A stretch of 64,000 nucleotides of DNA from Epsilonproteobacteria bacterium tcs-49 (lineage in GTDB: Bacteria; Campylobacterota; Campylobacteria; Campylobacterales; Sulfurovaceae): the NCBI GenBank assembly GCA_002049495.1, contig LLYS01000001.1, forward strand, positions 248,001-312,000. Reading direction: 5' to 3'. The notes below the pieces were generated by a model. The model saw only the letters and a program-made list of their open reading frames with translations, searched no databases and was not told the origin of the DNA. Shown here piece after piece: positions 3,916-39,081 of this stretch. The translations under genes and the position numbers were made by a program. Position 1 is the stretch's first letter; each line of letters starts with the position of its first letter.

Positions 3916-3946
3916 CACATTTTTGCTACATTTTTTTAAATATAAT
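3916..3946 (+). promoter_or_regulatory. YACAY direct-repeat promoter, c-di-GMP/two-component operon
   Basis: CACAT (3916-3920), 6 bases, TACAT (3927-3931), 9 bases, TATAAT (3941-3946). The half-sites are 11 bp apart and cover the -35 region; this copy has N9 before the -10, where the other seven have N10. It precedes the operon that also encodes an OmpR-family regulator, so autoregulation is possible. A ribosome site (AAGGGG) precedes the ATG at 3975. Confidence 0.65.
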
Positions 3947-3974: not shown

Positions 3975-4301
3975 ATGGAAGATCTCAAGCAGTTGCAAAA
4001 TTTAAAGATCCTGTGCGTAGAAGATGATGAGTTCGCGCTGCAAAACCTTGTCGAATTTCTGCGTTATAGCTGCAAAAACGTCTACAGCTGTCTCAATCCG
4101 CAAAAAGCGCTGCAGATGATTGAGGAGAAAAAACCCGATATTATCATCAGCGATATCAAGATGCCGCAGATGAACGGGATCGAACTGCTCACCGATCCGC
4201 CCCGGTATCAAAACGATTCTCATGTCCGCTTATTTCGAACCGGAGATCTTTATCTCCGCCATCGAGCTGAAAGTGGACAACTTTTTGCTCAAACCTTTTA
4301 A
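3975..4301 (+). pseudogene. Receiver domain, frameshifted 5' part of a REC-GGDEF-EAL gene
   Basis: The first 73 codons encode a good receiver domain start, with acidic LCVEDDE and phospho-acceptor IIISDIKMPQMNG. After IELLT (about 4191) the frame turns into nonsense and ends at 4301. The rest of the receiver (IRPGIKTILMSAYF, then FLLKPF with the conserved Lys) continues in another frame from about 4195 into the next reading frame. Compared with the neighbouring receiver at 5609, the junction is about four residues short. That would fit an 11-base deletion better than one inserted base. A sequencing error cannot be excluded. Confidence 0.7.
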
Positions 4302-5616
4302 TAAGCAAGAACTCCTGCAAGCGCTTTCAAGCTGCGTCAAAGCGATCGACCTGGAGCAAAAAGCCCAGGAATACACCGATGCCGAGGAGATGGACAAGGA
4401 CCTTTTCATCGATCCGGTCACCCAGCTTCCCAACTACAACAAACTCGAAAAGGATGTACAAAGCTTCCACAATCCCACCTTGATCATGTTCGAGCTTTTC
4501 GGATTTGAACAGATCGATTCCATGTACGGTACCGACGTGGCGAACAAGCTGCTCAAACAGATCGCCGGGTTTTATACGGTGCAGGTCCCCCAGGGACAGA
4601 AGCTGTACCGCTACCAGTATAACCAGTTTGCCATTTTGCTGGAGGATTTCGACCTCATCGCGGTCAAGGATTTGATCACCACGTTTGACAACGTCACCCT
4701 GCTCTCCTCCTTTGAAACCTACGGCATCAATATCTATTTCAAACTGCAGTACGGCATTTGCCGCGAAAAGGAAAACATCGTCGAAAAAGCGTTCATGGCG
4801 CTGCAGGAAGCCCACAACATTCCCAATAAAAACTACTGCTTTTACGATTCCAAATCCGATATGATCAAGCAGCAGCAAAAAAATATCCTCTGCGGCATGA
4901 AACTCAAAAACGCCCTGGAAAAAGAGAATATCATCGCCTATTATCAACCCATTTTGAATTTGAAAAACAATCAGATAGAAAAGTATGAAGCCCTGGCGCG
5001 GATGAAGGACAACGGCCAGATGGTCGCCCCCATGGATTTTATCCCCGCGGGCAAAACCATGGGGCTTCACGTGCCGATGACCAAGCAGATGATCAATCAA
5101 AGTTTCAAAAAGTTCGCCGATACCCGTATGCAGATTGCGCTGAATCTTTCTCTGGAGGATTTTATCGACAGCGATATCCCCTTCTTTTTGGAAAAGCGGG
5201 TGCTTGATTTCGGGATCGATCCCGCACAGGTGGTTTTAGAAATCACCGAAGATATCAGTATCGACCCCAACAGCGACGTTTTGTATACGCTGCAAAAGTT
5301 TAAACAAAAGGGCTTTCGCCTGGCTATCGACGATTTCGGAACCAAGATGGCGAACTTTTCCAATATCTGCAGTATCGAACCCGATTTCGTCAAGATCGAC
5401 GGGCAGTTTATCAAGGATTTGGAGTTTAACGATAAAAACTACACCATCGTCAAATCTATCGTCACCGTCGCCAAAAGTATCGGCGCGCAAACCATAGCGG
5501 AATTTGTCCATAACGAAAAGATTTTGCAAATCGTCAAGGATCTGGACGTGGATTTCGCACAGGGCTACCTCATCGGGGTGCCGTCAAATAAAAATGAAGG
5601 GGATAGCAATGGGTAA
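4222..5616 (+). CDS. Degenerate GGDEF plus EAL phosphodiesterase, 3' part of the frameshifted gene
   Basis: Begins inside the receiver domain (FLLKPF), then a GGDEF-type domain whose signature is degenerate (YQYNQFAIL in place of GGDEFAIL), then a full EAL domain. The EAL residues needed for c-di-GMP hydrolysis look intact: YEALAR, LNLSL, ITED, IDDFGT, FVKIDG, IAEFV and QGYLIG. So cleavage of c-di-GMP to pGpG is plausible, while cyclase activity is not. The ATG at 4222 has no ribosome site, so it is an open-frame boundary and not a likely true start; expression depends on the upstream frameshift. It overlaps the next gene by 8 bases. Confidence 0.72.
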   Translation: MSAYFEPEIFISAIELKVDNFLLKPFNKQELLQALSSCVKAIDLEQKAQEYTDAEEMDKDLFIDPVTQLPNYNKLEKDVQSFHNPTLIMFELFGFEQIDSMYGTDVANKLLKQIAGFYTVQVPQGQKLYRYQYNQFAILLEDFDLIAVKDLITTFDNVTLLSSFETYGINIYFKLQYGICREKENIVEKAFMALQEAHNIPNKNYCFYDSKSDMIKQQQKNILCGMKLKNALEKENIIAYYQPILNLKNNQIEKYEALARMKDNGQMVAPMDFIPAGKTMGLHVPMTKQMINQSFKKFADTRMQIALNLSLEDFIDSDIPFFLEKRVLDFGIDPAQVVLEITEDISIDPNSDVLYTLQKFKQKGFRLAIDDFGTKMANFSNICSIEPDFVKIDGQFIKDLEFNDKNYTIVKSIVTVAKSIGAQTIAEFVHNEKILQIVKDLDVDFAQGYLIGVPSNKNEGDSNG

Positions 5617-6307
5617 TATGGATGAGTTGCAATATTTGAATATTCTTTATGTCGAAGACGAGATCGAAACACTGGAACTCTATAGCGAATTTCTTTCATA
5701 TTACGTCAACGGGGTCGAAACCTCCACTTCCAGCGGGGAAGCGCTGGAGATGTTTAAGCGGAAAAAACCCGACGTGGTTTTGACCGATATCGATATGCCC
5801 GGCATCAACGGCGTTACTTTGGCTACGGAGATTCGTAAACTCGACAAGGAGGTGCGCATCATCATGCTTACGGCCCACACCGATCCCAAGTATATGATCC
5901 CCTCCATAGAGCTTGATATCTCCAAATACCTGGTCAAGCCCATCTCCAAATCCGCTTTGCTCGATGCGTTGAAAAAGTGTGCCCACGAGTTAAAAGGAGA
6001 AAACGACAGCATCGTTTTTCTGGATGAGGATTTTACTTTCAACCTGGAAAACAAGGAGCTGTTACACGGCAAAGAGCATATCAGGTTGCAAAAAAAATCG
6101 ACCCAGATTCTGGAGTATCTGATTTTGCATAAAAACAGCGTCGTTACCTACGAATCGATCTCTGAACTGCTGTGGGGGGATGAACTGGTGTCGCTCAATG
6201 CGATCCGCTGCCAAATCCGCTCCCTGCGCAAAAAACTGCCCGTAGACGTTGTGGAAAATATTTCGGGCATCGGCTACAAGATCAATCTGTCACAGAAAAA
6301 ACAGTAA
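5609..6307 (+). CDS. OmpR/PhoB-family DNA-binding response regulator
   Basis: 232 residues. Start chosen at ATG 5609, which has a GAAGGGG ribosome site and leaves an 8-base overlap with the EAL gene; the longer frame back to 5504 only shadows that gene. Residues 8-125 are a receiver with D60 in VVLTDIDMPG and Lys in YLVKPIS. Residues 135-232 are a winged-helix output domain ending in the typical IRSLRKKL...ISGIGYKI. It is the only clear DNA-binding response regulator in the window, and this family binds 11-bp-spaced direct repeats. I infer, without proof, that it acts at the repeated promoter element described in the findings. The partner kinase may be the one encoded next. Confidence 0.9.
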   Translation: MGNMDELQYLNILYVEDEIETLELYSEFLSYYVNGVETSTSSGEALEMFKRKKPDVVLTDIDMPGINGVTLATEIRKLDKEVRIIMLTAHTDPKYMIPSIELDISKYLVKPISKSALLDALKKCAHELKGENDSIVFLDEDFTFNLENKELLHGKEHIRLQKKSTQILEYLILHKNSVVTYESISELLWGDELVSLNAIRCQIRSLRKKLPVDVVENISGIGYKINLSQKKQ

Positions 6308-6322
6308 CTATAAAGGGAGTGT

Positions 6323-6628
6323 ATGAACCAAAACATCTATCTGTACGATACCAAAATCCTCATCCTGGAGGATGACGGGATGCTGCAAAACAGGATTTTG
6401 GCCAATTTGGAAGAGTTGGGCAACGAGGTCGCTTTCATCTCTTCGGGGATGAGCGTCGTGGATGAGTATAAAAGTTTCAAACCCGACATCTTTGTCATCA
6501 ATCAAGATATCAACGATACGATCGATCTGGAAAATATGGAGTATCTGCTCAAACACTGCGCTTCCACCCCCTCCATTTTGCTCACCACCGTCGCGAAAAA
6601 GAGTTTTACGAACATCTGCTGCGCCTGA
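6323..6628 (+). pseudogene. Receiver domain, frameshifted 5' part of a REC-histidine kinase gene
   Basis: Starts with a good ribosome site (AAAGGGAG) and encodes ILILEDDGM and a receiver-like core, but the acceptor position reads FVINQDI. The frame ends at 6628. Shifting back by one base at the A-run 6596-6600 restores a natural receiver end (EFYEHLLRL then VLPKPLN with the conserved Lys-Pro) that runs without a stop into the kinase below. One lost A (six to five) is the simplest cause. The site also reads G AAA AAG in frame, which resembles a -1 slippery sequence. Confidence 0.7.
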
Positions 6629-6726
6629 ATACGACGACCGTTTTACCAAAACCGCTCAACAGCGTCCAACTGCTCGATTCGCTCAGCGCCATCTCAAAGC
6701 AGCAAAAGATCGGCGACGCCCTCTCC

Positions 6727-7419
6727 ATGGAGACCAAATTCGAAGGGATCGGGGAGATGGTAGGCAATATCGCCCACCAGTGGAGACAGCCACTCAACCG
6801 CCTCTCGGGGATCATGCTCAATATCTCCGCGGCCAACGACTTTGGAAAGCTCACCCCCGAACTGCTCAACGAAAAGCTGGGCCAGGCCGACGATACGATC
6901 AAGTACCTTTCCCAGACCATCGAGGATTTCAAACGCTTCTACTCCTCCACCAGGATGCAGGAAAATTTCGACCTGGAGCAGGTGATCAAAGAGGCGATCG
7001 ATTTGACCACCGCGCCTATGCAGGAGTTTGTCAAAATACACTTTATCGTCAACGCCAGCTGCTCCATCACCAATTATAAAAAGGAGTTTTTTCAGGCGGT
7101 CGTGAATATTTTGCACAACGCCAAGGACCAGTTTAAAATCAAAGGGATCGAAAGGGCCACCGTCACCATCACCGTCGGAAAAAACGGCGACTCCTGTTAC
7201 GTCATTATCGAAGATAACGCAGGGGGGATCGAGATCGAACCGGTGGAAAAGATCTTTTATCCCTATAAAACCACGAAAAAGAACAAAGGAACGGGTCTGG
7301 GGCTGTATATCACCAAACTGATTATCGAAGAGAAGATGCGCGGAACGATCACCGCGGAAAACTCCCACAAGGGAGCAAAGTTCAAAATCACCCTCCCCCT
7401 GGATGAAGGAGCAGCTTAA
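6727..7419 (+). CDS. Histidine kinase, 3' part of the frameshifted REC-kinase gene
   Basis: 230 residues from the first in-frame ATG; the frame is open upstream to about 6600, where it encodes the end of the receiver domain. The DHp phospho-acceptor is in GNIAHQWRQPLN. The catalytic domain shows NILHNAKD (N box), EDNAGGI (G1) and GTGLGLYITK (G2). No membrane segment is present, so it is cytoplasmic and would have been a hybrid protein with an N-terminal receiver. Being co-transcribed with the OmpR-type regulator makes that regulator a likely partner. Whether a functional product is made depends on the frameshift at 6596. Confidence 0.8.
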   Translation: METKFEGIGEMVGNIAHQWRQPLNRLSGIMLNISAANDFGKLTPELLNEKLGQADDTIKYLSQTIEDFKRFYSSTRMQENFDLEQVIKEAIDLTTAPMQEFVKIHFIVNASCSITNYKKEFFQAVVNILHNAKDQFKIKGIERATVTITVGKNGDSCYVIIEDNAGGIEIEPVEKIFYPYKTTKKNKGTGLGLYITKLIIEEKMRGTITAENSHKGAKFKITLPLDEGAA

Positions 7420-7450: not shown

Positions 7451-7482
7451 TACACTTTCTTCACACTTTGGGCATATATAAT
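7451..7482 (+). promoter_or_regulatory. YACAY direct-repeat promoter, heme chemoreceptor
   Basis: TACAC (7451-7455), N6, CACAC (7462-7466), N10, TATAAT (7477-7482). Same geometry as the other sensory promoters. It lies just after the stop of the kinase gene and drives the chemoreceptor at 7601, with a short leader reading frame in between. Confidence 0.65.
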
Positions 7483-7600: not shown

Positions 7601-9190
7601 ATGTTTAAAACCTTTAAAGCAAAAGCCCTATTTACCCTGTTTTCCTTTTTTCTTATCGGCGGGATCAGCGTATACTGGCTGATCTCCACCGATTACGTCA
7701 AACTCTCTACGCAAAACGCCAAAAGCTCTTTGACGATGCTTTCGCAATCGGTGTTTCAAACCCTGCGTCAAGGGATGAATTTCGGTTCGCAGGAGGTTAT
7801 TCGTCAAATCGAGGAGGATGCCAAGCAGATTGACGGGATCAAGCAGCTCAAAGTCCACAAATCCCAACAGGTGATCGAGTTTTTCAACCTCAAATCAGCC
7901 CTGAGCGATGATCCCGAAGTCCAGGAAACCTTCCGTTCCAAACGGGAAAAACTCCTTGAAACGCAAAGCGGCAACCAGCACAGCGTCCGTTTACTCAAAC
8001 CCCTGATCGCCGAGCAGGAGTGCCTAAGCTGCCACGCCAACGCCCAACCGGGCGACGTACTCGGGGTCATGGATTTGACCATCTCCATGAACGCCGTGGA
8101 TAAAAAGATACACAGCTCCAAGCTGCAACTGCTTTTGATCATGGCCGTCGCCGTCGCGATCGGTCTTGCGGGCTTGGTGATCTTTTTTTCCAAAGAGTTG
8201 GTACAGCCGCTGAACAAGCTTACCTCTATGGCCAGGGAGCTCTCCGGCGGCGAGGGGGATTTGACAAAGCGCCTGGAGATTAAAAACGAGGATGAAGTTT
8301 CCACCGCTTCGAAATATATCAACACCTTTATTCAAAAGATCCAAAACACGGTTACCCAGGCCAAGGATTCCTCCGACGAAAACATCGACATGGGCTCACA
8401 GCTTCAGCGGCTCTCAAAGGACTTGGTAGAAAGTGCGAAAACCCAGACGCGCTACGTCGAAGACGTTGATACCATCGCCAATGAGATCGATTCCAACCTG
8501 CAAACCAACAGAGAATACTCCGATATGACCACAGCGGATTTGAAAAGTACCGAGCAATCCTTGGAAAATCTCTCTGCAAAACTCACCTCCGTAATCCAAA
8601 GCATTCAATACAACTCCGAAACCCAGGAGGATCTCTCACAGCGTATGGGATCGCTGAACGAACAGGCCGATCAGATCAACAACGTCTTGGAGATTATCTC
8701 CGATATCGCCGATCAAACGGGACTGCTCGCACTCAACGCCGCCATCGAAGCGGCGCGGGCGGGAGAACACGGCAGAGGGTTCTCCGTCGTCGCGGACGAG
8801 GTGAGAAAGCTTGCGGAAAAAACCCAGCAAAGCCTCACAGAGATCAAAGCCACGACAAATATCATCGTGCAAAACATCACCAGCGTCAGCGATGAGATCA
8901 AACAGGCAAGTAACGACGTGATCGAGGTTTCAAGAAGTGCGAACAACCTGATCGAACAAACGGACCAAACCAGATCGCAGCTGCAAAATACTATATCTAC
9001 GGAGGCGGATTCTTCGCAAAAACTCCTGGAAAGTATCGAGAAAACCGCTGATCTGCTACAGATGATGGATCAAATTGTCCAGATTTCGTCCAAAACAGAA
9101 AAAAGCGGTATGGCTGTACACAAGATGTCCGAATCACTGCTTGATAAGGCAAACTTCCTCCAGTCGGAACTGGGGCAGTTCAAGGTATAA
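7601..9190 (+). CDS. Methyl-accepting chemotaxis protein with periplasmic c-type heme domain
   Basis: 529 residues. ATG 7601 chosen because GGGGAGA lies 5 bases upstream; the frame back to 7544 has no support. Order: transmembrane helix 1 (about 8-28), periplasmic domain (30-175) with the heme-attachment motif CLSCH at 141-145, transmembrane helix 2 (about 177-196), HAMP, and a cytoplasmic signalling domain with the conserved tip ([24 protein letters not shown]). The [15 protein letters not shown] context resembles the DUF3365/Tll0287-like heme domain found in some sensor proteins. I infer a redox or gas ligand sensor feeding CheA. It has no CheR-binding pentapeptide tail. It has its own promoter and a hairpin after its stop. 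Confidence 0.88.
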
Positions 9191-9217: not shown

Positions 9218-9249
9218 TACACTTTTCTCACACTCTCATTCCCTATAAT
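9218..9249 (+). promoter_or_regulatory. YACAY direct-repeat promoter, double-receiver protein
   Basis: TACAC (9218-9222), N6, CACAC (9229-9233), N10, TATAAT (9244-9249). The two half-sites are identical to those of the promoter at 7451. Drives the gene at 9302, which has an AAGGA ribosome site. Confidence 0.65.
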
Positions 9250-9301: not shown

Positions 9302-11770
9302 ATGGCACTACCCGGCAACAACGTTTTGATTCTCAGCAATATACTTTTCATAAGCGCAAAAGCACAGACAACCCAAAAGATCGCAGGGGTCTTTTTAAAG
9401 CGCTACTGCAAAAATATCCTCACCGCTGCAAGCGCACAGGAAGCCCTGGAACTTTTGCAAAGCAAACAGATCGATATCGTTATCTGCGATATCAAACTCG
9501 GCGACGGCTGCGGCATAGAGATGCTGCAAAAAGCAAAACGCTTCAACCCCGATACGATCGATATCCTCTTAATGGACAACCTCACCCCCGAACTTTCCAA
9601 AAAAGCTACGGCGATACAGCCCTTTGGCATCTTTGAACGCCCCATTAAGAGCAGCGCCTTTTTAAACAGGATCATCGAGGCCGACAGGGAGATCGCCGCA
9701 AAAACCACCAGACGCTATATGGAAAAGGAGCGCATCCTCAATGAGATTTTCACCAACCAAAACGACAACATCAACGAATACCTCAAGCAGATCGAGCAAC
9801 CCGCCGCATACTTTACGCAAAAAGGCAAACTCCAAGCATTTAACGACCTCTTTTCCAACCTTTTCACAGATGCGACCACCCTGGAAAATTCCTCGATCAC
9901 GGAGCTTCTTCGCGACGAAAACGCGGAACCGGTAACCTTGGAGGATTTAAAAAACCGCCTGCTTGAAAGCGCTACTATCAAAGATGTCCCCGATTCCATT
10001 TACAGTATCAAGATCAAACCGATCGAGTTTGGATTCAATATCAGCTACATCCTCTACCTCGATATCAAGTGCGATCTTGTACCAAAGGTACAAAAACCCA
10101 AGATTCTGCTGGTCGAAGACTCCCCCGTCGCACGAAAGATCGTCAAAAGAGAACTCTCCCCCGAAGCCAACGGCTACGAGTACAAGGAGGCCAAAAGCGC
10201 CGAAGAGGGGTTGGAGATTTTAAAACACTACCTGCCCTGCATCATTATCGCCGATCTGGTTCTTCCCAAAATGAGCGGGGTCAGTATGATCGAAAAGATC
10301 AAAAACGACCCGGAGCTCTCCGATATCCCCATCATCGTCATGAGCGAACTGGACAATATGGAGGTCAATACGAAGCTTATCCGCCTGGGGGTAACCTCCT
10401 TTGTGCAAAAACCCTTTTCAAAAGGAGCTCTGCTACACCGCATCGACGCCATACGCAAAGAGAGCAAACCCTGCCTGGATGTGGAGACCAAGCGGGTGGT
10501 CAATACCCTAAGCCTGTTTGAAAACAGCAGCGGCACCTGGCAGGTGCTTAACTCCCTCTGCGCCTCCTTGCTGCACTTTTTCAAATCCGACGATATCGAC
10601 ACGGCGTACGGGTACTACTCTTTGGGGCTGCTTGCGGCGGCACACCACGGCGAGTCCACACTGCAAAACGTCCTCAAACTTGCCCGCTCCTTCAAACTCG
10701 GCAAAGAGTTTTTGGAGTTTCTTGAAGCGCTGAAAAACCCCGTTTCCACCACCGAACAGATCTTTGCTTCGGTATGGAAGGAGTTTTTAGAATCCAAAGG
10801 GATCGAATCCGCAGAGATCAAGATCAACAACTCTACTATCAAAAAACAGCTCGACAGCTTCATCGAAAGAAACCGCCTACAGTTTAACAACGGCAGCGCC
10901 GCCCAACAGATCGTATACCACTACGGAGCGAAACTCGAGGAGCTTGTTGAGGATATGGCGCTGCGGCAGGAGTTTATCCGTTTGATAGAAACGGTGCTGC
11001 ACCACCAGCTCGTCCACTCCCACGGAGGGACGTGCGAACTGCACGAAGAGCTTCCCTCCCCACGCTTTCTTCTCACACCAAAAACATCTTCTCCCCATGC
11101 CCCTGAACAGCTTCTGGAAACGCTGCGGGCGCAGGATTTTTCAAAGCTGCAGCTTACGGTTGAAACCTATGAGGAGCAAAATGCCCTGATGGTCACCGCC
11201 GCTACACACCAGCCCCAAAAGCAGCAACCTGAACCGGAGGAGCCGGCATTTATGGATTTTTCCTTTGAGGAGGAAGCGGCGCAACAGGATCCCCAAAGCG
11301 AAAAGATCAGTGCCACGGACTTTATGGAGCAAACTGAGATCGATCCCGAGGATATAGAATCTTTGGAGTATATGGAAAATGACCTCTATGACTGCATCAC
11401 CGAATTGACCTACTCCGATTCCCAAAATGAAAAGCTCAGTGAAGCGGGGGAACTGTTTCGTAAATATGGAACGACGATCATCTACCTGCGCGAATTCAAC
11501 ACCATCTCCCAGGCACTGACGGGTTTGGCGACACAGTTTATGGATACAGACCTGGGCAACATCGATCCCGCTTTGGCACGGATGCTGCCCAATATCTTAG
11601 AAAATCTGGTTAATGATTTGCAAAACTGGAGAGAGAGCATCTTTGTCTACCATGAAGCGGATGATATCCACTTTCTGGACTCTTCCATCACCAACAACTG
11701 CGAACAGTGCAAAAGTTTCCTGACCCCCAAACAGGCGCAGGAGCAAAACGATGCGGATATCTTCTTTTAG
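9302..11770 (+). CDS. Large double-receiver signalling protein with uncharacterised C-terminal module
   Basis: 822 residues, no membrane segment. Domain order: receiver 1 (about 7-125, acceptor in IVICDIKLGDG), a PAS-like region (about 150-255), receiver 2 (about 262-385, KILLVEDSPVARKI, acceptor in IIIADLVLPKMSG, Lys in SFVQKPFSKG), an all-helical region (about 395-590), an acidic Gln/Glu-rich linker (about 630-690), and a compact C-terminal helical module (about 700-800). It ends DADIFF. I do not recognise an output domain of known activity. Its location, convergent with cheB (4-base overlap) and under the shared promoter element, suggests a phospho-relay or scaffold role in chemotaxis. Confidence 0.75.
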   Translation: MALPGNNVLILSNILFISAKAQTTQKIAGVFLKRYCKNILTAASAQEALELLQSKQIDIVICDIKLGDGCGIEMLQKAKRFNPDTIDILLMDNLTPELSKKATAIQPFGIFERPIKSSAFLNRIIEADREIAAKTTRRYMEKERILNEIFTNQNDNINEYLKQIEQPAAYFTQKGKLQAFNDLFSNLFTDATTLENSSITELLRDENAEPVTLEDLKNRLLESATIKDVPDSIYSIKIKPIEFGFNISYILYLDIKCDLVPKVQKPKILLVEDSPVARKIVKRELSPEANGYEYKEAKSAEEGLEILKHYLPCIIIADLVLPKMSGVSMIEKIKNDPELSDIPIIVMSELDNMEVNTKLIRLGVTSFVQKPFSKGALLHRIDAIRKESKPCLDVETKRVVNTLSLFENSSGTWQVLNSLCASLLHFFKSDDIDTAYGYYSLGLLAAAHHGESTLQNVLKLARSFKLGKEFLEFLEALKNPVSTTEQIFASVWKEFLESKGIESAEIKINNSTIKKQLDSFIERNRLQFNNGSAAQQIVYHYGAKLEELVEDMALRQEFIRLIETVLHHQLVHSHGGTCELHEELPSPRFLLTPKTSSPHAPEQLLETLRAQDFSKLQLTVETYEEQNALMVTAATHQPQKQQPEPEEPAFMDFSFEEEAAQQDPQSEKISATDFMEQTEIDPEDIESLEYMENDLYDCITELTYSDSQNEKLSEAGELFRKYGTTIIYLREFNTISQALTGLATQFMDTDLGNIDPALARMLPNILENLVNDLQNWRESIFVYHEADDIHFLDSSITNNCEQCKSFLTPKQAQEQNDADIFF

Positions 11771-18633: not shown

Positions 18634-18665
18634 ATTTTATCGAGCACATATGTGCAATTTATGTG
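18634..18665 (-). promoter_or_regulatory. YACAY direct-repeat promoter, che operon
   Basis: On the minus strand: CACAT (18665-18661), N6, CACAT (18654-18650), N10, TAAAAT (18639-18634). Same spacing as the other sensory promoters. It drives the CheZ-like gene and probably all of cheY to cheB. A further unpaired CACAT lies upstream near 18706. Confidence 0.6.
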
Positions 18666-21137: not shown

Positions 21138-21169
21138 ATGATAGCCTTTGCAAATGTGCTTTTTATGTA
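21138..21169 (-). promoter_or_regulatory. YACAY direct-repeat promoter, CZB chemoreceptor
   Basis: On the minus strand: TACAT (21169-21165), N6, CACAT (21158-21154), N10, TATCAT (21143-21138). It is back-to-back with the plus-strand copy at 21236 in the 310-base divergent gap 21053-21363. Nothing else recognisable is in the gap apart from the leader frame at 21327. Confidence 0.6.
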
Positions 21170-21235: not shown

Positions 21236-21267
21236 TACATTTTTCTCACATAATTATCATTTATAAT
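21236..21267 (+). promoter_or_regulatory. YACAY direct-repeat promoter, PAS-kinase operon
   Basis: TACAT (21236-21240), N6, CACAT (21247-21251), N10, TATAAT (21262-21267). An extra CACAT half-site lies at 21221. Drives the operon 21364-25985. Confidence 0.65.
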
Positions 21268-21326: not shown

Positions 21327-21404
21327 ATGCGATTTACAATATACATAGAAAGAAAGAGGCGCTATGGAACACAACATCATAAACGTCGCGATCTACGGCT
21401 TTAA
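21327..21404 (+). CDS. Possible 25-residue leader peptide overlapping the PAS kinase start
   Basis: ATG at 21327 has a strong GAGAGGA ribosome site and encodes a basic 25-residue peptide (MRFTIYIERKRRY...DLRL) ending at 21404, overlapping the kinase start at 21364 in another frame. Arrangement resembles the leader frame at 7519, which also follows a direct-repeat promoter. No motif is recognised, and it may be spurious. Confidence 0.3.
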   Translation: MRFTIYIERKRRYGTQHHKRRDLRL

Positions 21405-23337
21405 AAACCTCACTACCCCTCCCAAAGCCGCCGACAGTTCGATCATGTTCAGCGTCCACGATTCCATAGAACAGCTGCAGCAGTTCAATGAAAAAAATCA
21501 ACCCTGCTTTCTCGTCGTGCCGTGCAAAAAGGTCAAAAAACTGCAAAAACGGTTTGACAACTTCGAGGACACTTTAAAAATCATCATCGTAAAAAACGGC
21601 GAAAAACTGATCGAAATGATGGACAACTCCCAGCTGGACAAATATATGAAAGCTCCCTTTGACGCCAAAAAGATTGAAAAATATCTGATGAAGATTTATC
21701 AAAAGGACAGCTACTTCGTCATCGACGATGAAGATACGCAAAGCTTGAAATCGCGGCTGGATATCCAAAGACGTGAACTGCAAAGCTCCACGGCGCTGCT
21801 GGAAAGTTACAAAAAAGCGGTGGACGCGGGAACGATCCTTTCAAAAACCGACACGAAAGGGGTGATCACCTACGTCAACGAGCAGTTTTGCAAAATTTCG
21901 GGGTACACGAAAGAGGAGCTCATCGGCAAACCCCACAACATCATCCGCCACCCCGATAATCCCCCCAGCATCTTCAAACAGATGTGGGATAGAATCCAAA
22001 GCAAGCAGATTTGGCACGGGGAGGTCAAAAACCGTACGAAAAACGGAGGCCACTACTGGGTGGACGCCACCGTGGTCCCCATCCTGAACGAAAACAACGA
22101 AATCATCGAATACGTCGCGCTACGGCACAACATCACCGAAGTGATGGATTACAAAGAGTTGCTCGAACAGCGGGTCAAGGAAAAAACCAAAGAGATCACG
22201 AAAAATATTAAACTGCTCCAGGAGTATAAAAACGCCGTTGACGCCAGTTCGATCATGTCCAAAACCGATACCAAGGGCCGCATCACCTTCGTCAACGACG
22301 AGTTTTGCAAAGTGGCGAAATACAGCAAAGAGGAGCTCATCGGCAAACCCCACAACATCGTCCGCCACCCCGACATGCCCAAAGAAGCTTTCAAGCAGAT
22401 GTGGGATACAATTTTAGACAAACAGATATGGACCGGGGTGGTTAAAAACCGTGCCAAAGACGGTACCGCGTACTGGGTACACGCCACCATCGTTCCCATC
22501 TTGGATGATCGCAACAATATCGTCGAATTCGTCGGGATCCGCCAGGATATCACCGAATTGATGAGTTACCGTCAGGAGTTGGAGAAAAAAGTGCAGGAGG
22601 AGTTGGAGAAAAACCGCGAAAAGGATGTGATGCTCCAGCAGCAATCGGCCCAGGCGGCGATCGGGGAGATGGTCAACTCCATCGCCCACCAGTGGCGGCA
22701 GCCGATCAACTCCATCAGTCTGGAAGCGACCAACATTATTTTGGATGCGCAGATGCAGGAGGGGTTTGACACGATCGAAGAATCCGCTTCGACCATCAGT
22801 TATCTTACCAAAACGATGTCGCAGACCATTACCGATTTTATGGAGTTTTCCAACCCCGACCGTACGGAGGAGAGATTTTTCGCCGCGGAGATGTTCGATT
22901 CGATCCAAAAGATGCTCGAATCCCAACTCTTTAGCAAGAATATCGCTTTTGTGAACAACTGCGATACCGGGTTGCAACTCTATACCTATAAAAACGATTT
23001 GAAACAGGTGGTGATCAATCTGGTCAACAACGCAAAGGACGCTTTCGTCAAACACAATATCGAGGGTAAGGACAAACAGATCGTTATCCGCGTCAAAGAG
23101 GATGCGATCAACGTCGCCATCACTATCGAGGATAACGCCGGGGGTATCCCCGAGGAGTACAAAGAGAAGATATTTGACCCCTACTTTACCACCAAAAATC
23201 CCGGAGAGGGGACCGGACTGGGGCTTTATATCTCCAAAAAGATCGTCAACGACCAACTGATGGGGGAGTTGTACTATACCAGCAGCGGTGAAGGGACGCG
23301 CTTTACAATCGATATACCGAAACGATGCACAATTTAA
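21364..23337 (+). CDS. Cytoplasmic histidine kinase with pseudo-receiver and two Aer-type PAS domains
   Basis: 657 residues, no membrane segment. Residues 5-115 resemble a receiver that has lost its acceptor (FLVVPCKK at the Asp position) but keeps an MKAPF Lys-Pro-like turn. PAS1 (150-262) has KPHNIIRHPD and PAS2 (288-400) has KPHNIVRHPD, the motif of Aer/CetB-type PAS domains that bind FAD. A coiled coil (400-430) leads to the DHp box NSIAHQWRQPIN (H442) and an ATPase domain (NLVNNAKD, EDNAGGI, GTGLGLYISK). Likely a redox or energy-state sensor kinase. The next gene, a receiver protein, is the probable partner. Confidence 0.88.
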   Translation: MEHNIINVAIYGFKNLTTPPKAADSSIMFSVHDSIEQLQQFNEKNQPCFLVVPCKKVKKLQKRFDNFEDTLKIIIVKNGEKLIEMMDNSQLDKYMKAPFDAKKIEKYLMKIYQKDSYFVIDDEDTQSLKSRLDIQRRELQSSTALLESYKKAVDAGTILSKTDTKGVITYVNEQFCKISGYTKEELIGKPHNIIRHPDNPPSIFKQMWDRIQSKQIWHGEVKNRTKNGGHYWVDATVVPILNENNEIIEYVALRHNITEVMDYKELLEQRVKEKTKEITKNIKLLQEYKNAVDASSIMSKTDTKGRITFVNDEFCKVAKYSKEELIGKPHNIVRHPDMPKEAFKQMWDTILDKQIWTGVVKNRAKDGTAYWVHATIVPILDDRNNIVEFVGIRQDITELMSYRQELEKKVQEELEKNREKDVMLQQQSAQAAIGEMVNSIAHQWRQPINSISLEATNIILDAQMQEGFDTIEESASTISYLTKTMSQTITDFMEFSNPDRTEERFFAAEMFDSIQKMLESQLFSKNIAFVNNCDTGLQLYTYKNDLKQVVINLVNNAKDAFVKHNIEGKDKQIVIRVKEDAINVAITIEDNAGGIPEEYKEKIFDPYFTTKNPGEGTGLGLYISKKIVNDQLMGELYYTSSGEGTRFTIDIPKRCTI

Positions 23338-23349
23338 AAGGATGTTACG

Positions 23350-24168
23350 ATGATAAACAATTTAAAACAACTGGGTGAAGGTTTGGAAATCTTATACGTT
23401 GAGGATGATCAAAACGCCAGAGAATCCACCACGAGAATCCTGCGGCGCTTTGTGGACAACCTGCGCGTAGCCCAAGACGGCAAGGAGGGCTTGGATATCT
23501 TTTTAGAACGCAAGGAGTATCTGGATCTGGTCATTACCGATATCTCCATGCCGGTGATGAACGGACTGGAGATGCTTTCAAAGATGAAAGAGCTCTCCCC
23601 TTCGCTTCACGCCATCGTCATCTCTGCGCATAACGATACGGGCAACCTTGTCGACGCGATCGAGATCGGGGTGGAGCACTTTTTGATCAAGCCCATCGAA
23701 CCGGCGAAGATGTTTGCCACCTTTGAAACGGTTTTGCAAAAGATACAAAACGAGAAGGAGCTTGAGCGGCTCAAAAATAAAGAGATCAACGACCGCCTCT
23801 GGCATGCGGTGGATATCTCCTATGAAACGCTTTTGAGCAATATCGCCCTGCCCGCTATTGTTTTAAACGAAGAGGATATGATCCTGGCCCATAACGACAA
23901 GTTTTACAACTGCCTGGAAAATATCGAAAACCCCGAACTTGTCGAGCAACTGGAGCAAAAAACCTTAAGCCTGCAAACGGTAATGCAGGAGGAGCAGATG
24001 CTCAAAGACACCCTTGTCAACTGGAAAGAGGAAGCGGTGCAGCTGCACGAAGGGATCTTGGAAAAGCTTCGCTTCCACTGCCTGGATGATGAGAGGGATT
24101 ACGGTCTCTCCATTCAAAAGTCTACCCTTGACGGGGAGCAGACGCGCTATATAGCGATCTTTTTCTAA
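23350..24168 (+). CDS. Response regulator with C-terminal PAS-like domain
   Basis: 272 residues. Receiver domain (12-130): EILYVEDDQN, acceptor in DLVITDISMPVMNG, Lys in HFLIKPIEP. Residues 165-272 form a PAS-like fold (PAIVLNEEDMILAHNDKFYNCL) without DNA-binding or enzymatic motifs. It lies 12 bases after the kinase gene, so it is probably its phosphorylation partner. The layout is close to the start and end of the receiver-PAS protein at 30914-32074, suggesting related origin. Output is unknown. Confidence 0.85.
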   Translation: MINNLKQLGEGLEILYVEDDQNARESTTRILRRFVDNLRVAQDGKEGLDIFLERKEYLDLVITDISMPVMNGLEMLSKMKELSPSLHAIVISAHNDTGNLVDAIEIGVEHFLIKPIEPAKMFATFETVLQKIQNEKELERLKNKEINDRLWHAVDISYETLLSNIALPAIVLNEEDMILAHNDKFYNCLENIENPELVEQLEQKTLSLQTVMQEEQMLKDTLVNWKEEAVQLHEGILEKLRFHCLDDERDYGLSIQKSTLDGEQTRYIAIFF

Positions 24169-24188
24169 AGATAGGGGAGGATCTGTCC

Positions 24189-25985
24189 GTGCGATTTTTG
24201 CACCGCCGCCTCTCCTTAAGGGGCTTACAACTACTTTTACTGCTGCTGTATCTTTTGTCGCTGCTGCTTTTTTACGGCCTCTACCGCAGCGACGTGCACA
24301 CCTATGAACAGCGCAAGCTCGACAACACCGCCAAACAGTTCAACGGCGTGCTGTATATGTATGAAAAGATCGCTACGCATATCTACGAACACGTGGTCAA
24401 CCATGAACATATCACCGCTTTGCTGCACCGTGCGGCCCACTCCAAAGAGGATGAACGCAACCGTATCCGCAAGGAGCTTTACGCCCTGTTGCAAAACGAT
24501 TACGACAAGATCACCAAACAGGGTATCCGCCAATTCCACTTCCACCTTCCCGACAACACCAGCTTCCTGCGCTTCCACCGTCCGCAGCGCTACGGGGACA
24601 ACTTAACGCAGATCAGGGAATCGGTCCGGCTGAGCAACGCTTTGCAAAAACGGGTTACGGGCTTTGAAGAGGGCAAAATCTTTAACGGATTTCGCTACGT
24701 CTTTCCCGTTTTCTACAAAGAGATGCACGCGGGCAGCGTCGAAGTATCCATCTCCTTTTGGTCCGTTTTGCAGATGATGCAAAAGCTTTACGGGGTTGAC
24801 GGCAGCTTTTTCATCCTCAAACAGACGGTCCGATCCAAAGTCTTTGACAACGAACGCACCGGCAACTATATCCAAAGCTTTGCCTTTAGCGATTTTTACA
24901 AAGAGCGTCGGCAGCTGCAACGGATCGAGCATAAACTCCAAGACAGCTATATCGACCGGATCAATAGGACCCTTGCGGCCTCTTACGCAGAGCATATCAA
25001 AGCGTTTCTCCCCGTAGGCCACACCGTCAGCATCGACGGCAAAGACCTGTTTGCGGCGATGCTGCCCGTTACCAACATCCAAAACAAGCAGGTGGGGTAT
25101 GCGATATTTTACAGCGACAAAACCATCACCTCCTCCTTTTTTAAAGACCTTATTATCAACCTGCTGGGGTTGAGCGCTTTCTTTGCCACTTTATACGGGA
25201 TCGTTTTGTTTTTGAATAAGGAGCAAAAACATCTGCAGCAAAGCCTTAAACAGGAGCGGCGTATCCGTCAAAAGGAGCAGCTGCACCTCATAGAACAGAG
25301 CAAAACCGCCGCTTTGGGAGAGATGTTTGGCGTTATCGCCCACCAGTGGAAACAGCCGCTCAACACCCAAAGTATGCTTGCTTCGGAGTTGGAACTGCTG
25401 CTTGCCGAATCCCCGGTCGATACCAAAGCGCTCATGCAGGTTCAAAAAAACCTGCTGCGCCAAATCCGGTTCATGTCCGAAACGGTGGATGATTTTCAAG
25501 CTTTTATCACCCCCGAACACAAGCGGCGCACCTTCAATATCAAAACCCCGATAATGCAGATTTTGCGCATCATCGAAAAACCCCTTGAAAATGAGCGGAT
25601 CACCCTAAAACAGCACCTAAGCGACGAGTTTTTTGTCAACGGCGTTCCCAGCGAGCTCAAACATGTCATCCTCAATCTGCTCAATAACGCGAAGGAGGTG
25701 CTTACCAAACAAAAAAGCGAGCATAAAGCGATCGGTATCTCCCTGAGCCGGGAGGGGGATTACGGCTATATAACCGTATGGGACAACGGCGGCGGGATCG
25801 ATCCTAAGCTTCTGCCCGATAACCTTTTCGAAGTGCAGGTCACGACCAAACCCACCGGCAGCGGCATCGGACTGAGTCTGGCGCGGGTGATCATACAGGA
25901 GCACATGCACGGCTATATCAAAGCCTACAACGACGGCGACAAAGCGGTCTTTAGCATCAAACTGCCCCTGGTAAAAGAGGCTTAG
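24189..25985 (+). CDS. Membrane histidine kinase with double-Cache sensor
   Basis: 598 residues from GTG 24189 (GGGAGG ribosome site). Transmembrane helix 1 (about 10-33), a large periplasmic sensor (35-315), transmembrane helix 2 (about 318-338), coiled coil, DHp box GVIAHQWKQPLN, ATPase with NLLNNAKEV, WDNGGGI and GSGIGLSLAR. The motifs SFLRFHRPQRYGDNL and FNGFRYVFPVF are typical of the dCache_3 group of sensors, so a small periplasmic ligand is expected. Last gene of the 21364 operon; its 3' end overlaps the converging PAS gene by 4 bases. Confidence 0.87.
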   Translation: MRFLHRRLSLRGLQLLLLLLYLLSLLLFYGLYRSDVHTYEQRKLDNTAKQFNGVLYMYEKIATHIYEHVVNHEHITALLHRAAHSKEDERNRIRKELYALLQNDYDKITKQGIRQFHFHLPDNTSFLRFHRPQRYGDNLTQIRESVRLSNALQKRVTGFEEGKIFNGFRYVFPVFYKEMHAGSVEVSISFWSVLQMMQKLYGVDGSFFILKQTVRSKVFDNERTGNYIQSFAFSDFYKERRQLQRIEHKLQDSYIDRINRTLAASYAEHIKAFLPVGHTVSIDGKDLFAAMLPVTNIQNKQVGYAIFYSDKTITSSFFKDLIINLLGLSAFFATLYGIVLFLNKEQKHLQQSLKQERRIRQKEQLHLIEQSKTAALGEMFGVIAHQWKQPLNTQSMLASELELLLAESPVDTKALMQVQKNLLRQIRFMSETVDDFQAFITPEHKRRTFNIKTPIMQILRIIEKPLENERITLKQHLSDEFFVNGVPSELKHVILNLLNNAKEVLTKQKSEHKAIGISLSREGDYGYITVWDNGGGIDPKLLPDNLFEVQVTTKPTGSGIGLSLARVIIQEHMHGYIKAYNDGDKAVFSIKLPLVKEA

Positions 25986-28226: not shown

Positions 28227-28258
28227 ACTATACTCTATAAAAGTGTGCAGATTATGTG
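28227..28258 (-). promoter_or_regulatory. YACAY direct-repeat promoter, cetBA
   Basis: On the minus strand: CACAT (28258-28254), N6, CACAC (28247-28243), N10, TATAGT (28232-28227). Spacing identical to the other sensory promoters. Confidence 0.62.
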
Positions 28259-28260
28259 CT

Positions 28261-29667
28261 TTAAACTTCCCCAAGGCTGTGTTCGAGACTGATAACCGTT
28301 TTTACCCCTTCGCCGTGATTGTGCATACTGATCCTGCCGTTTGAATACTTTTCAATGATCATTTTGCTCATATAAAGGCCGATCCCCGTTCCCTCGGCTT
28401 TGAACTTGGTAGTAAAGTAGGGTTCAAAAACCTTTTCCAGTACCTCCGGTTCCGCTCCTCCGGCGTTATCTGCGATCTCCATCCTTACGGCGGTATCATC
28501 GCATTCAATGAGGATTTTGATCTCCGGACGGGGTGTTTTGTGCAGTTCAAAAGCATCCTTTGAATTGTTGAGAATATTAAGCAGCACCTGCTCAAACTCC
28601 CCCTTGTACCCTTTGACGCGGCAGTTGTAGCGATCTGAGACCGCCACATCGATCTCCAGATGGGCAAAGCTCCCCTCCATAAGCTGCAGCACCGTATCCA
28701 CCGATTCGCGCAGGGAAAAGACCTCCTTCTCCTTGGCCGGTTTGAAAAAGTGCCGGAAATCATCGATAGTATGGCTCAGCTTTTTGATATAACGATCGCA
28801 TTTTTGCATATACTCCTGGATATATTTTTGATCGACCAATCCCTCTTCAAAATCATCTTCAAGCAGCTGCGTATTGATAGAAAGAGCATTGAGCGGCTGT
28901 CGCCACTGGTGGGCTATATTGCTGATCATCTCCCCCATGGAAGCCATCTTGGATTGCTGGATCAGCATTTGATCCTTTTGGCGCAGCTGCGCCACCTTTT
29001 GCTCCACCTTTTGACGCAGCGTCGCGTTGAACTCCCGAAGCTGGGCGGTTTTTTGCTCCACGCGCTGTTCCAGGGTATTGTTTAATTTTTGCAGCATCTT
29101 CGCGTAGCGGTGCAGCTTTAACGCAAAAAGCTGCGCGATAGCAAAGGTTATCAACGACGCCACCAGCATCGCCGCCGCCGCGATTTTTATATTCTTTTCG
29201 ATGTGGTGGCTGATGCGTCTTTGTATCTGTGCTTTGATCTGTTCTATCTGCTTGTGTAAATCATCAAAGTAAAAACCGCTGCCGACAATCCAGTTCCACG
29301 GTTTATAGTAGTAAAAATAGCTGTAGCGCTGTGAATACTCATCGCTTTGGGGTTTTTTAAACCGGTATCCCATATACCCCTCCCCGCGCTTGCGCAGCAT
29401 CGCAAGGTAGTTTTTCCGGTACTGCTTCCCTTCCGCGTCGGAAAAATCATCGGAGATCACTTTGCCTTGCAGCTTTGGATCGATGGAAAGGACGATTTTG
29501 CCGAAATTTTTACCGCCTTGAAGTCCCCTGTCGGTCGCGATGATAAATAGATAGTTTTCGGGGGTGCTTTCAAAGCTTTTTAACCCCTCAAGCGTTTTTT
29601 CCCCGGAGCGGATCCTCTTCGAGTACCTTTCTGGCTTTGGCGAAGACCTTTTCCCACTGGCGCTCAA
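28261..29667 (-). pseudogene. Histidine kinase lacking its N-terminal membrane anchor and part of its Cache sensor
   Basis: Recognisable sequence begins only at about 29590. It is the second half of a single-Cache periplasmic sensor (ENYLFIIATDRGLQGGKNFGK, YYKPWNWIVGSGFYFDDL), then a transmembrane helix, coiled coil, DHp box SNIAHQWRQPLN and an intact ATPase (NILNNSKD, ADNAGGA, GTGIGLYMSK). The first transmembrane helix and first part of the sensor are missing. Upstream codons to the ATG at 29667 merely re-read the end of the beta-propeller gene in another frame. A deletion that joined the two genes is the simplest explanation. The kinase domain could still be made, but the sensor would not be exported. 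Confidence 0.6.
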
Positions 29668-30910
29668 GTTTTTGATACAGGTTGAGCTTTTGGATAATGG
29701 GATACTTGGCCGCTATCTGATACGCAAGGGGGTATTTTTTCTCATTGACCGCTTCGATAAACTCGGCGATATGATCTTTTTGCAGCATCAGCGTATCCAA
29801 AGACTGCTGGAACTCTTCAAACCCCATGAAAGGTTCCACCAACTCCAAAGCCTCCTCCAGGCGATCCTTGGCTATGAGCTCCTGGGCTTTTTTGTAGATA
29901 TCCTCAAACCCCGCTTTAAACTTCTCTATCCCCGGGTCCAGATACAAAAAGGAGTTCTCATCCAAAATCTTCTTTGCCCGCGCATAATCTTTTACCTCCA
30001 CGTTGACGTGAAAATCATCCTTTTTATGTCCCATATCCACCGTGTGGATCGTTCCGTTGATATAGGTTAGTTGCAACACCTCCCCATCCAGCGAAAGGGA
30101 GGTCACCCCCTCATCCTCCATATCCACGCTAAACACCGCACGGTTTTGGAAAGGATCAAGCAGATAAAGCCGGTTCTTTCTCGTTCCCACAATAACGTAG
30201 CGCCCATCCCCGGTCAAAACCGCTTCGGTTACCCACTGATTGAAAAGGACCCGTGAATCGGTCACCTTGCCCAACACGCAATCGTAAACGCTGCTGTACC
30301 CCTCCCGGTCCATCAGCAAAATCTTTTTATCATCGTCAAAAAATACCGCCGCTTCCACGACGCCGTTGAGGGTAAAGTGTTTCAACTTATCGTTTGTGAG
30401 GTTTAAAACGAGATTTTCCATATTGAAATAGGAAACGACCGCGCAATCCCCCGAGTGGGAAAATGACGCACAGGAGGCGAAATCGGGCTTGTTTTTAAAG
30501 ATATAGCGGATCTTTTTACTTTTGGTATCGATCAAAAAAGCTTTCCCGTCCGCCCCGGCACAGAGTAGATGCTTTCTGTCGGGGCTGTATCTGGTAAGTT
30601 CGATATCCTGTTCATGCAGTTCGCGTTTGAAAAAGGGTTTGAGCTTTCCCTCCTCGCTGTAGCGTGCCTGCAACAGCGTCTTTTTAGCCGGTACCGCGAC
30701 GAAACCTCCCCGTACGCTGAAAGCTTTGGAAAAGAGGTGCCGCCCGCTGCCCTCTTTGAGCAGCTTCATCTTGGTAATGAGTCCGTAGGAACTGTCAAAG
30801 ATATATAAAACCGCCTGTACGTCAACGATAAAGATATACTCGCCGCTCTTTTGCGCTTCCAAAATGCCGTTTTGAAGTTTAAAATATTTTTGCGTTGCGT
30901 AAGCGGCCAT
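29588..30910 (-). CDS. Beta-propeller (WD40-like) protein with helical C-terminal region
   Basis: 440 residues, no signal peptide. Residues 1-290 show repeated four-strand units (for example LYIFDSSYGLITKM, AFLIDTKSKKIRYIF, LYLLDPFQNRAVFSV), fitting a WD40-like propeller. Residues 300-440 are helical, TPR-like. The protein ends abruptly at EEDPLRGKNA exactly where the truncated kinase begins, so its C-terminus may also have been cut by the same deletion. Such proteins occur beside signalling genes in relatives, but I know of no function. It starts 4 bases after the receiver-PAS gene. Confidence 0.65.
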   Translation of the reverse strand: MAAYATQKYFKLQNGILEAQKSGEYIFIVDVQAVLYIFDSSYGLITKMKLLKEGSGRHLFSKAFSVRGGFVAVPAKKTLLQARYSEEGKLKPFFKRELHEQDIELTRYSPDRKHLLCAGADGKAFLIDTKSKKIRYIFKNKPDFASCASFSHSGDCAVVSYFNMENLVLNLTNDKLKHFTLNGVVEAAVFFDDDKKILLMDREGYSSVYDCVLGKVTDSRVLFNQWVTEAVLTGDGRYVIVGTRKNRLYLLDPFQNRAVFSVDMEDEGVTSLSLDGEVLQLTYINGTIHTVDMGHKKDDFHVNVEVKDYARAKKILDENSFLYLDPGIEKFKAGFEDIYKKAQELIAKDRLEEALELVEPFMGFEEFQQSLDTLMLQKDHIAEFIEAVNEKKYPLAYQIAAKYPIIQKLNLYQKLERQWEKVFAKARKVLEEDPLRGKNA

Positions 30911-32104: not shown

Positions 32105-32136
32105 ATTATAAAGTATGGATATGTAGGATTTATGTA
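32105..32136 (-). promoter_or_regulatory. YACAY direct-repeat promoter, receiver-PAS operon
   Basis: On the minus strand: TACAT (32136-32132), N6, TACAT (32125-32121), N10, TATAAT (32110-32105). More half-sites (TACAT, TACAC) occur further upstream, to about 32165. Both half-sites are perfect TACAT, so this is the cleanest direct repeat of the set. Confidence 0.65.
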
Positions 32137-35252: not shown

Positions 35253-35523
35253 TAGACTTCTTGCGAAACCATAGATTGAACATAGCTTTGTGGATTTCTT
35301 CACTCAGCAAGGCTTTCTTTTGCAGGTGCAGCCATAGCTGCATCAAAAAAGAGTAACGACGCTGATGGGCAAATACACAAAGCCCTACGGGAGGCAAGGA
35401 AAAGGCAATCTTTATAAAAGTATAACTTTCGAATTAGCTACGGCTAGTCCTTCAAGTTATACTTTTTAAATCTCACCTTTTCTTTGCCCTCTATGTCTAA
35501 CCTATGGTTTTGCAAGAAGTCTA
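35253..35523. mobile_element. MITE-like element, copy A
   Basis: 271 bp, almost identical to the 272-bp copy at 38769. The ends are inverted repeats of about 21 bp (TAGACTTCTTGCGAAACCAT at the left; the right end has one mismatch here), and similarity between arms extends to about 33 bp. Further inside are IR arms GGCAAGGAAAAGG/CCTTTTCTTTGCC and AAGTATAACTT/AAGTTATACTT. No transposase frame. The TA at each end fits a TA target duplication, but cannot be told apart from the repeat itself. Together with the hairpin at 35587 it fills the gap 35225-35657. Confidence 0.75.
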
Positions 35524-35586
35524 TTGTTTAATTATATTCAGTTTTGCTTTTTTTCAGTTGATTTTCTCCATGATGGTACAGGGAAG

Positions 35587-35657: not shown

Positions 35658-36725
35658 TCAACGGTTATGCGATGGCTGATCGATCTTCCGTGCCCACTTG
35701 TAAAACAGCCGGTCCGGATCGATCCGCTCGTCGATCCTTTTTCCTTTAGCAATAAACTCCGCCAAAGCTTTTGCGATCATAGGAGAAAAGACAAACCCCC
35801 TGCCCCCGGTACCGCCGATCATATAGAGGTTTTTCCGATACGGCAATCCGTCTCGGGGTTTGATCCCTTTTTTGACCATCGGGTACTCCCGCAGCGTACG
35901 TGCCACATCCACCACGCGCCCCGCCACGGGGAAATAATCTCGCACCGCCGAACGCATCCCGCAAAAGCTTTGCACGATCTCATACTCGCCAAATTCCCGC
36001 AGCCGCCGCGCTTTTTCCATAAGGACTTCATTGCTGCTTTGGCGGCACTTTTGCGGACGTATCACCTCCTTTTCGTGGGTCGCGCCCACCCGCACGAGCC
36101 CGCCGATGGTCGCGGAGATGGAGACATCTTTGTGCATACTGCGTTGAAAAACCCTGTCCGTTTTCACGTCGCAGCGCTGCCCCCACGTCCTGCGCAATCC
36201 CATATACTCCAGATCCGCCAGCGGCGTTTGTGCACCGGTAGCGAGGATAATGTGTTTGGCTTTGATCCGGGAAAGATCGGTAACCTTTTCATAATATATC
36301 CGCGAACCCCCGCACATCCCCTCGCACAACTCCTTTGCATCGCCCGCGCCGCCGGAGGGGAAGAAAAAGGCGGGAAGGCCGCCGATTTCGGCGTTTTCAC
36401 AGGCTATAGCGTTATGTTTTGCATAGATAGGAAAAAGTTTCGCATCCTCCTCATCTCTGGCGATGCGGTAGATGCCCGTTTCATGGAAGTGTCGGGGGAA
36501 ATTCTCTTTATAAAAGGCGGTGGCAAACGTAAAAGCTTCGTTGGTCAACTGCTGCAGCTTTCCGCCCTTGCCGATGCGCGGCGAGATAAACGCCCCCGCC
36601 GCTCCGCTGGCTTGGGACGCGATACCCTCCGCCTCGTAGATACAGACGCGCATCCCCGCCTCACGGCAAAAATGCGCCGCGGCCGCGCCGGTGGCACCGC
36701 CGCCGATGACCGCTACGTCAAACAC
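35658..36725 (-). CDS. FAD-dependent oxidoreductase, MnmC C-terminal-like
   Basis: 355 residues. Rossmann FAD-binding motif at the N-terminus (VAVIGGGATGAAAAHFCREAG), then ASGAAGAFISPRIGKG, which resembles the FAD domain of the tRNA-modifying enzyme MnmC, and a C-terminal MIGGTGGRGFVFSPMIAKALAE. A D-amino-acid-oxidase-type amine oxidation is the family activity. A stand-alone MnmC-like role in completing mnm5U of tRNA is plausible but not shown; no methyltransferase half is fused. It overlaps the end of glyS by 8 bases. Confidence 0.7.
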   Translation of the reverse strand: MFDVAVIGGGATGAAAAHFCREAGMRVCIYEAEGIASQASGAAGAFISPRIGKGGKLQQLTNEAFTFATAFYKENFPRHFHETGIYRIARDEEDAKLFPIYAKHNAIACENAEIGGLPAFFFPSGGAGDAKELCEGMCGGSRIYYEKVTDLSRIKAKHIILATGAQTPLADLEYMGLRRTWGQRCDVKTDRVFQRSMHKDVSISATIGGLVRVGATHEKEVIRPQKCRQSSNEVLMEKARRLREFGEYEIVQSFCGMRSAVRDYFPVAGRVVDVARTLREYPMVKKGIKPRDGLPYRKNLYMIGGTGGRGFVFSPMIAKALAEFIAKGKRIDERIDPDRLFYKWARKIDQPSHNR

Positions 36726-38727: not shown

Positions 38728-38768
38728 AGACACATTCCCTGTTGTAGTTTTGTCGTAATTAAAGGTAA

Positions 38769-39040: not shown

Positions 39041-39081
39041 ATTATATCCTAAAGTAGGTTTAGGCGGGGTTAGTGAATTTA

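Follow-up and report, generated by a model that had tools for sequence, protein, structure and literature searches.

A tandem promoter box and its probable OmpR-type regulator in a chemosensory island of Epsilonproteobacteria bacterium tcs-49

Accessory chemosensory systems are common, but the coordinated expression of their genes is poorly understood. The question is raised by an island of chemosensory genes lying at ~3.9–32.1 kb of the stretch of DNA analyzed here (64,000 nucleotides, hereafter the window), which covers ~28 kb (28.3 kb in the statistics) or 1.3% of the genome. The island was found to encode three MCPs, CheA, two CheW, CheR, CheB, CheD, a CheY-like receiver, several kinases and further receivers, and most of the flanking genes matched by Pfam are of the housekeeping type. 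As the genome has four CheA proteins together with flagellins, the island is one of several chemosensory systems. Its CheA has no match at E ≤ 1e-100 in 174 other genomes of the family. Elsewhere in the window, near-identical stretches at 35424–35536 and 38941–39046 (ataacttgaaggactagccgtagctaattcgaaagttatac) form a small repeated element flanking 35658–38925, a region with genes for an FAD oxidoreductase and the glycyl-tRNA synthetase beta subunit.

A candidate for the control of this gene set is an OmpR-type response regulator of 232 amino acids, encoded by window positions 5609–6304 on the plus strand (gene 5609..6307) in an intact reading frame. Both of its Pfam matches are above the cut-off, namely Response_reg (PF00072, residues 12–121, E 7e-26) and Trans_reg_C (PF00486, residues 156–224, E 3e-14), and the residues of the receiver are all kept (acidic pair E16/D17, phospho-acceptor D60, T88, and K110). 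The recognition helix is SLNAIRCQIRSLRKKLP (residues 195–211), of the type NAIRCQIRSLRKK with the signature AIRxQIR, and none of the other OmpR-type proteins of the genome has this helix. Orthology to PhoB was ruled out, as the score against the PhoB model TIGR02154 is 84.2 bits, far under the curated cut-off of 296.2 bits. The sequence-only reading of this locus had taken the protein to be the only clear DNA-binding response regulator in the window. This holds, as it has the sole copy of Trans_reg_C inside the window (out of 19 genome-wide), and Pfam scans of 57 further ORFs of the window identified no other DNA-binding domain.

The regulator gene stands second in an operon of three, following a REC-GGDEF-EAL gene (3975..5616, plus strand) and preceding a REC-histidine kinase gene (6323..7419, plus strand). 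Each of these neighbors has one frameshift within its receiver domain, the EAL and kinase cores still being open. In the first gene the break lies near 4180–4225 (frames 3975–4301 and 4222–5616). In the hybrid kinase gene it lies near 6590–6630, where the receiver part alone (6323–6628) is out of frame, and the HisKA and HATPase core is open from the ATG at 6727 to 7419. The frameshift in the hybrid kinase had been pointed out before and is confirmed; the suggestion attached to it, that the regulator may now answer another kinase of the island, goes beyond this, since the catalytic core is open, and for this reason the kinase of the same operon would be the simplest phosphodonor. The break sites comprise one short C-rich stretch and one A5 stretch, and would fit mutation and assembly error equally; the two breaks may represent either decay of the phospho-input or errors of assembly. 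The GGDEF signature within 4222–5616 seems degenerate (YQYNQF by eye) and the EAL domain scores well, which suggests that the product is a c-di-GMP phosphodiesterase.

All eight transcription units of the island (delimited by strand and gaps), including the regulator's own operon, were found to be preceded by a tandem box of the form YACAYWW-N4-YACAYWW, with an 11-bp period and a position ~7 bp upstream of the -10. Counted from the -10 hexamer, the half-sites begin 25 and 14 bp upstream, or 24 and 13 bp at box 1, which has 1 bp less spacing to its -10 than the other boxes. YACAY followed by A or T is present in 16 of 16 half-sites, giving an ACAY core with an invariant C. Box 1 (3917..3934, plus strand; ACATTTT-N4-ACATTTT, 6 bp before TATAAT at 3941) belongs to the regulator's own operon and is the element previously placed at 3916, present here as a copy with one mismatch. 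Box 2 (7452..7469, plus strand; TATAAT at 7477) precedes an MCP gene (7601–9190), and box 3 (9219..9236, plus strand; TATAAT at 9244) precedes the gene of an 822-aa double-receiver protein (9302–11770). Box 4 (18647..18664, minus strand; TAAAAT at 18639) stands before the che operon (18586–11767), which encodes a 290-aa unknown protein, CheY, CheA, CheW, CheW, CheR, CheD, and CheB. It is followed by box 5 (21151..21168, minus strand; TATCAT at 21143) before an MCP-CZB gene (21052–18725), box 6 (21237..21254, plus strand; TATAAT at 21262) before a PAS-kinase/receiver/dCache-kinase unit (21364–25985), and box 7 (28240..28257, minus strand; TATAGT at 28232) before the genes of a PAS protein and an MCP (28195–26399); the -10 is weak at boxes 4, 5, and 7. 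Box 8 (32118..32135, minus strand; TATAAT at 32110) precedes a REC-PAS/beta-propeller-like/Cache-kinase operon (32098–28261) and contains the perfect TACAT-N6-TACAT repeat, earlier assigned to 32136 and located here at 32121–32136 (minus strand). Between the REC-PAS protein and the Cache kinase of this operon, a 440-aa protein (29588–30910) has weak WD40/beta-propeller matches. In the other 36 kb of the window, beyond the island, the scan revealed no promoter-anchored box.

The element rises clearly above chance only once it is tied to the -10. When it was searched for without an anchor, TACAT-N6-TACAT gave 27 matches with ≤2 mismatches, compared with an expectation of 28.1, and 61 of 100 shuffled sequences had at least as many; a triple TACAT was found nowhere in the genome. 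An anchored scan (CAY repeated at a given period, the second CAY 12–14 bp before the -10 and the preceding base free) of 122 kb of the genome, consisting of the window and five other stretches, identified 12 repeats at period 11 compared with 0–3 for any other period between 7 and 15. The 8 matches in the window all fall in the island, with an A before the CAY in both halves. Across the whole genome (2.22 Mb), the pattern ACAY-N7-ACAY-N10-TATAAT has five exact matches, four of them in the island, and 15 matches with one mismatch, seven of them in the island, compared with one for the reversed pattern which served as the control. At the density outside the island, the Poisson probability of 7 matches in 28.3 kb is ~2e-11. 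The shared tandem element with an 11-bp period at the -35, as described in the sequence-only reading, is thus real once anchored to the -10. Outside the island, seven of the eight one-mismatch matches have an ORF start 5–113 bp downstream of the -10 (C13:105952 has none). Among the genes at these outside matches are those of a protein which looks PAS-like from its start sequence (C3:10174) and of a double-receiver protein (C14:53875), as well as an unknown gene that adjoins another chemosensory cluster (C1:73844); some of the matches may be due to chance. The signal depends on the CAY core. A de novo 6-mer scan of the regions of regulators with the AIRxQIR helix shows no box by itself (11 repeats at period 11 compared with 4–14 at other periods), and when any 7-bp repeat lacking this core was allowed, across all regions and with much low-complexity noise, period 11 did not stand out (153 compared with 172 at period 12).

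A repeat of this kind need not imply a dedicated regulator. The sigma-70 promoters of Campylobacter jejuni are reported to have no -35 box and to carry a periodic A/T signal instead (PMC3656092), and the island repeat could be only such a signal, replacing the -35 in sigma-70 promoters of the Campylobacterota. The C which is invariant in the core of every half-site speaks against this, as does the concentration of the word in the island rather than across the promoters of the genome, and a neighboring chemosensory cluster uses a different letter (see below). On account of the invariant C and the island concentration, periodicity alone was rejected and is regarded as highly improbable.

The identity of the protein reading the box was approached through homologues, as no orthologue is present in the genomes searched. 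Among 175 genomes of the family the best match had no more than 45% identity, and among 398 sampled genomes of the order no more than 43%; these genomes contain no further member of the same genus, and a search of genome contigs gave 4 loci at 25–29% identity, too distant for use. It had been proposed that boxes in genomes lacking the regulator would refute its role. The argument fails, since the searches gave no orthologue exceeding 45% identity and similar boxes are used by paralogues. In 33 regions of relatives, picked by protein similarity, 11 promoter-placed CAY repeats were identified at period 11 compared with 0–2 at other periods; nine of these lie within 3 kb of the homologue, and the spacing is 13 in 10 of the 11. 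The exact pattern was counted 56 times across 98 relatives, compared with 16 for its reverse, a control which does not correct for common -10 boxes.

When aligned, the homologues sort into recognition-helix types, of which AIRxQIR or AIRxQVR is found in 19 (L103, L150–L159, L161–L163, L166, L196, L197, L201, and L203). The octamer TTACATTT, with its CA 13 bp before the -10 of a promoter within 3 kb, is present in 9 of these 19 and in 0 of 35 homologues with other helices (Fisher 1.7e-5 for the 54 homologues, the same-helix relatives being kin and the counts not independent). The octamer was chosen when several of the 19 were already in view, and most of their promoters had been inspected by the time the exact test was fixed; in 15 regions added after this choice, it is present in 2 of 4 same-helix regions and 0 of 11 others. 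L151 has the variant TTACATTA, L103 has TTACATTT one base nearer its -10, and L162 has it after the kinase gene, where it was not counted as a promoter in the test. No box was found for L150, L154, and L196, and L155, L161, L163, and L197 are either near contig ends or have a following gene that was not parsed. The first half-site in the same-helix relatives is mostly unlike that of the island (TTCCATT, TTTCACA). In the tree, the window protein is the sister of the 19 (support 98/92), to which it is about 35–45% identical.

The box of these relatives lies directly after the OmpR-kinase operon, and the gene which follows it differs between genomes, being presumably ArgB-like from its start in L103, L159, L166, L201, and L203 and a different gene in L151, L152, L153, L156, and L158. 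The box thus tracks the regulator and not the target. Box 2 of the window (7452–7469) also lies directly after the regulator's operon with its CA at -13; its sequence is CACACTTT and differs from the exact octamer. A strict code linking helix to box was abandoned, as TACAC-type boxes also adjoin regulators with other helices. L165 and L118, which are of another helix type, have the closely similar word TACACTTTTTCTACATTT, with TACAC-TACAC/TACAT boxes in the upstream region, which means that the word is not determined by the helix signature alone. For eleven homologues with the helix TDSALRSLVRNLRKKL, namely L108 and ten of the later set, no box was found within 3 kb. Tandem boxes of the GACACTT type were observed near regulators with AVKSFM/AIKSFI/AVKSLI/AIKSLI-type helices in L121 (G043:C11), L122 (G017:C8), L120 (G062), and L101 (G081), apparently another helix-box pairing. 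A tandem box was also seen in L106 (G094:C1:618000–636000) between an OmpR-type gene and a TRAP-type-transporter-like operon (order by eye), a locus which also has a divergent Cache-type kinase gene.

A further explanation is that the island box is read by an OmpR-type paralogue from another part of the genome (C1:83763, C4:55468, or another of its 19 Trans_reg_C proteins), with a different role for the local protein. The genome has eighteen further copies of Trans_reg_C, an exact box (C4:54386) lies ~1 kb from the C4:55468 regulator, a near-box (C1:73844) lies within the other chemosensory region, and in relatives TACAC/TACAT words are found beside regulators with other helices as well. However, the box is concentrated around the 5609–6307 gene, its own promoter included, no paralogue has the AIRxQIR helix, which is the type that goes with TTACATTT in relatives, and the closest paralogue sits among a different word, CCAC. 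Reading by a paralogue is therefore considered quite unlikely. This closest paralogue, C1:83763, has 33% identity to the regulator and adjoins another CheA (C1:80713), a FIST-domain kinase, receivers, and a REC-GGDEF-EAL gene. CCAC-type tandem boxes are present in the regions of this second cluster, L072 (G000:C1:80000–88000) and L069 (G000:C1:66000–80000). Genome-wide, CCAC-N7-CCAC-N10-TATAMT with ≤2 mismatches gave 13 matches and the reversed control 30, so that only the top three matches carry weight. These three, the only ones with 0–1 mismatch (C1:72425, C1:86586, and C1:83657), are all in the neighborhood of the second cluster, one of them just downstream of the C1:83763 gene. As a different OmpR-type gene (C1:70731) is in the same stretch as the CCAC boxes, C1:83763 is one candidate for their reader. 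Another OmpR-type gene of the genome, G000:C1:384493 (L034), matches the first half only of the winged-helix profile and looks frame-broken.

The chances appear evenly balanced that the genome has at least two self-contained islands, each with a REC-GGDEF-EAL protein, kinase(s), Che proteins, an OmpR-type regulator, and a private box (ACAY vs. CCAC, the latter at C1:72–87 kb), as would result from an insulated duplicate re-coded by a few helix residues (NAIRCQIRSLRKK vs. YALRTVVKNLRKK). The pair of regulators would offer a two-way test of how the DNA specificity of a winged helix changes after duplication.

For the first island, it is very probable that the 5609–6307 protein is the dedicated regulator of the ~3.9–32.1 kb region and turns on its eight operons through the box, the one that encodes the regulator among them. 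The sequence-only reading had proposed OmpR-type control of the island and of the regulator's own promoter, and this is supported by the presence of the box at eight of eight operons, by its link with the helix in homologues (9/19 vs. 0/35), by the tree and by the geometry of PceP sites, the binding itself being inferred. Phosphorylation would take place at D60, with the operon's kinase as the simplest donor, and the regulator would bind as a head-to-tail dimer to the two YACAYWW half-sites spaced by 11 bp. The bound half-sites would cover the -35 region and the spacer, and the regulator would stand in for the missing -35 contact, activating the eight island operons and, at its own, exerting positive autoregulation. 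The opposite sign can also be envisaged, with the regulator binding the boxes and repressing the island until it is released on phosphorylation or dephosphorylation. The box overlaps the contact region of RNA polymerase, and at promoters without a -35 box, as in C. jejuni, a bound protein could block. Against this, PceP, whose sites overlap the -35, is argued by its authors to activate (PMC7755780), and DccR is reported to enhance transcription (PMC9449129, PMC7118207). Repression is considered rather unlikely, and activation with positive autoregulation is favored because of the case made for PceP and because C. jejuni promoters have no -35 box. If activation by the 5609–6307 protein is correct, one local regulator would serve the whole island and a sister regulator with a different letter the second, which would explain how a cell could express its chemosensory arrays as separate programs.

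The regulator family and the box geometry are of known kinds. PhoB of Escherichia coli is a winged-helix activator acting on direct repeats of 7 + 4 bp which replace the -35, and this geometry is shared by the box described here. The repeat of DccR is reportedly TTCAC-N6-TTCAC, with the same 5 + 6 bp geometry and a different word. The 19 AIRxQIR regulators share the helix signature of the window protein and form its sister clade (98/92); comparison of the neighborhoods of L150, L151, L152, L156, L158, and L166 with the island's proteins revealed no island-type Che protein or MCP, and the kinases of L151 and L152 bear CBS domains. A published OmpR regulon of chemosensory genes was not found in literature searches of open-licence papers, and a whole chemosensory island under one local regulator would apparently be a new regulon.

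Sulfurospirillum, which is presumably of the same bacterial class as the window organism, is the source of PceP. PceP (RR2) is an OmpR-family regulator of tetrachloroethene respiration, for which gel shifts showed binding to sites with CTATA repeats and 6-bp gaps overlapping the -35 (PMC7755780). PceP resembles the window regulator in its family and, as proposed for the latter, reads short direct repeats that are separated by 6 bp (11-bp period) and overlap the -35, and controls several operons around its own gene, the regulator operon being among the targets. It differs in its word (CTATA vs. YACAY), in the proposal that the outer repeats (17-bp gap) are those bound, in its target, which is a respiration region and not a chemosensory island, and in the control of its own operon from 85 bp upstream and not over the -35 (PMC7755780). 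DccR of C. jejuni is likewise OmpR-like with a cognate kinase, and activates a small regulon which includes its own gene, as proposed for the window regulator; its targets, unlike those of the island, are periplasmic and membrane proteins (PMC9449129, PMC7118207).
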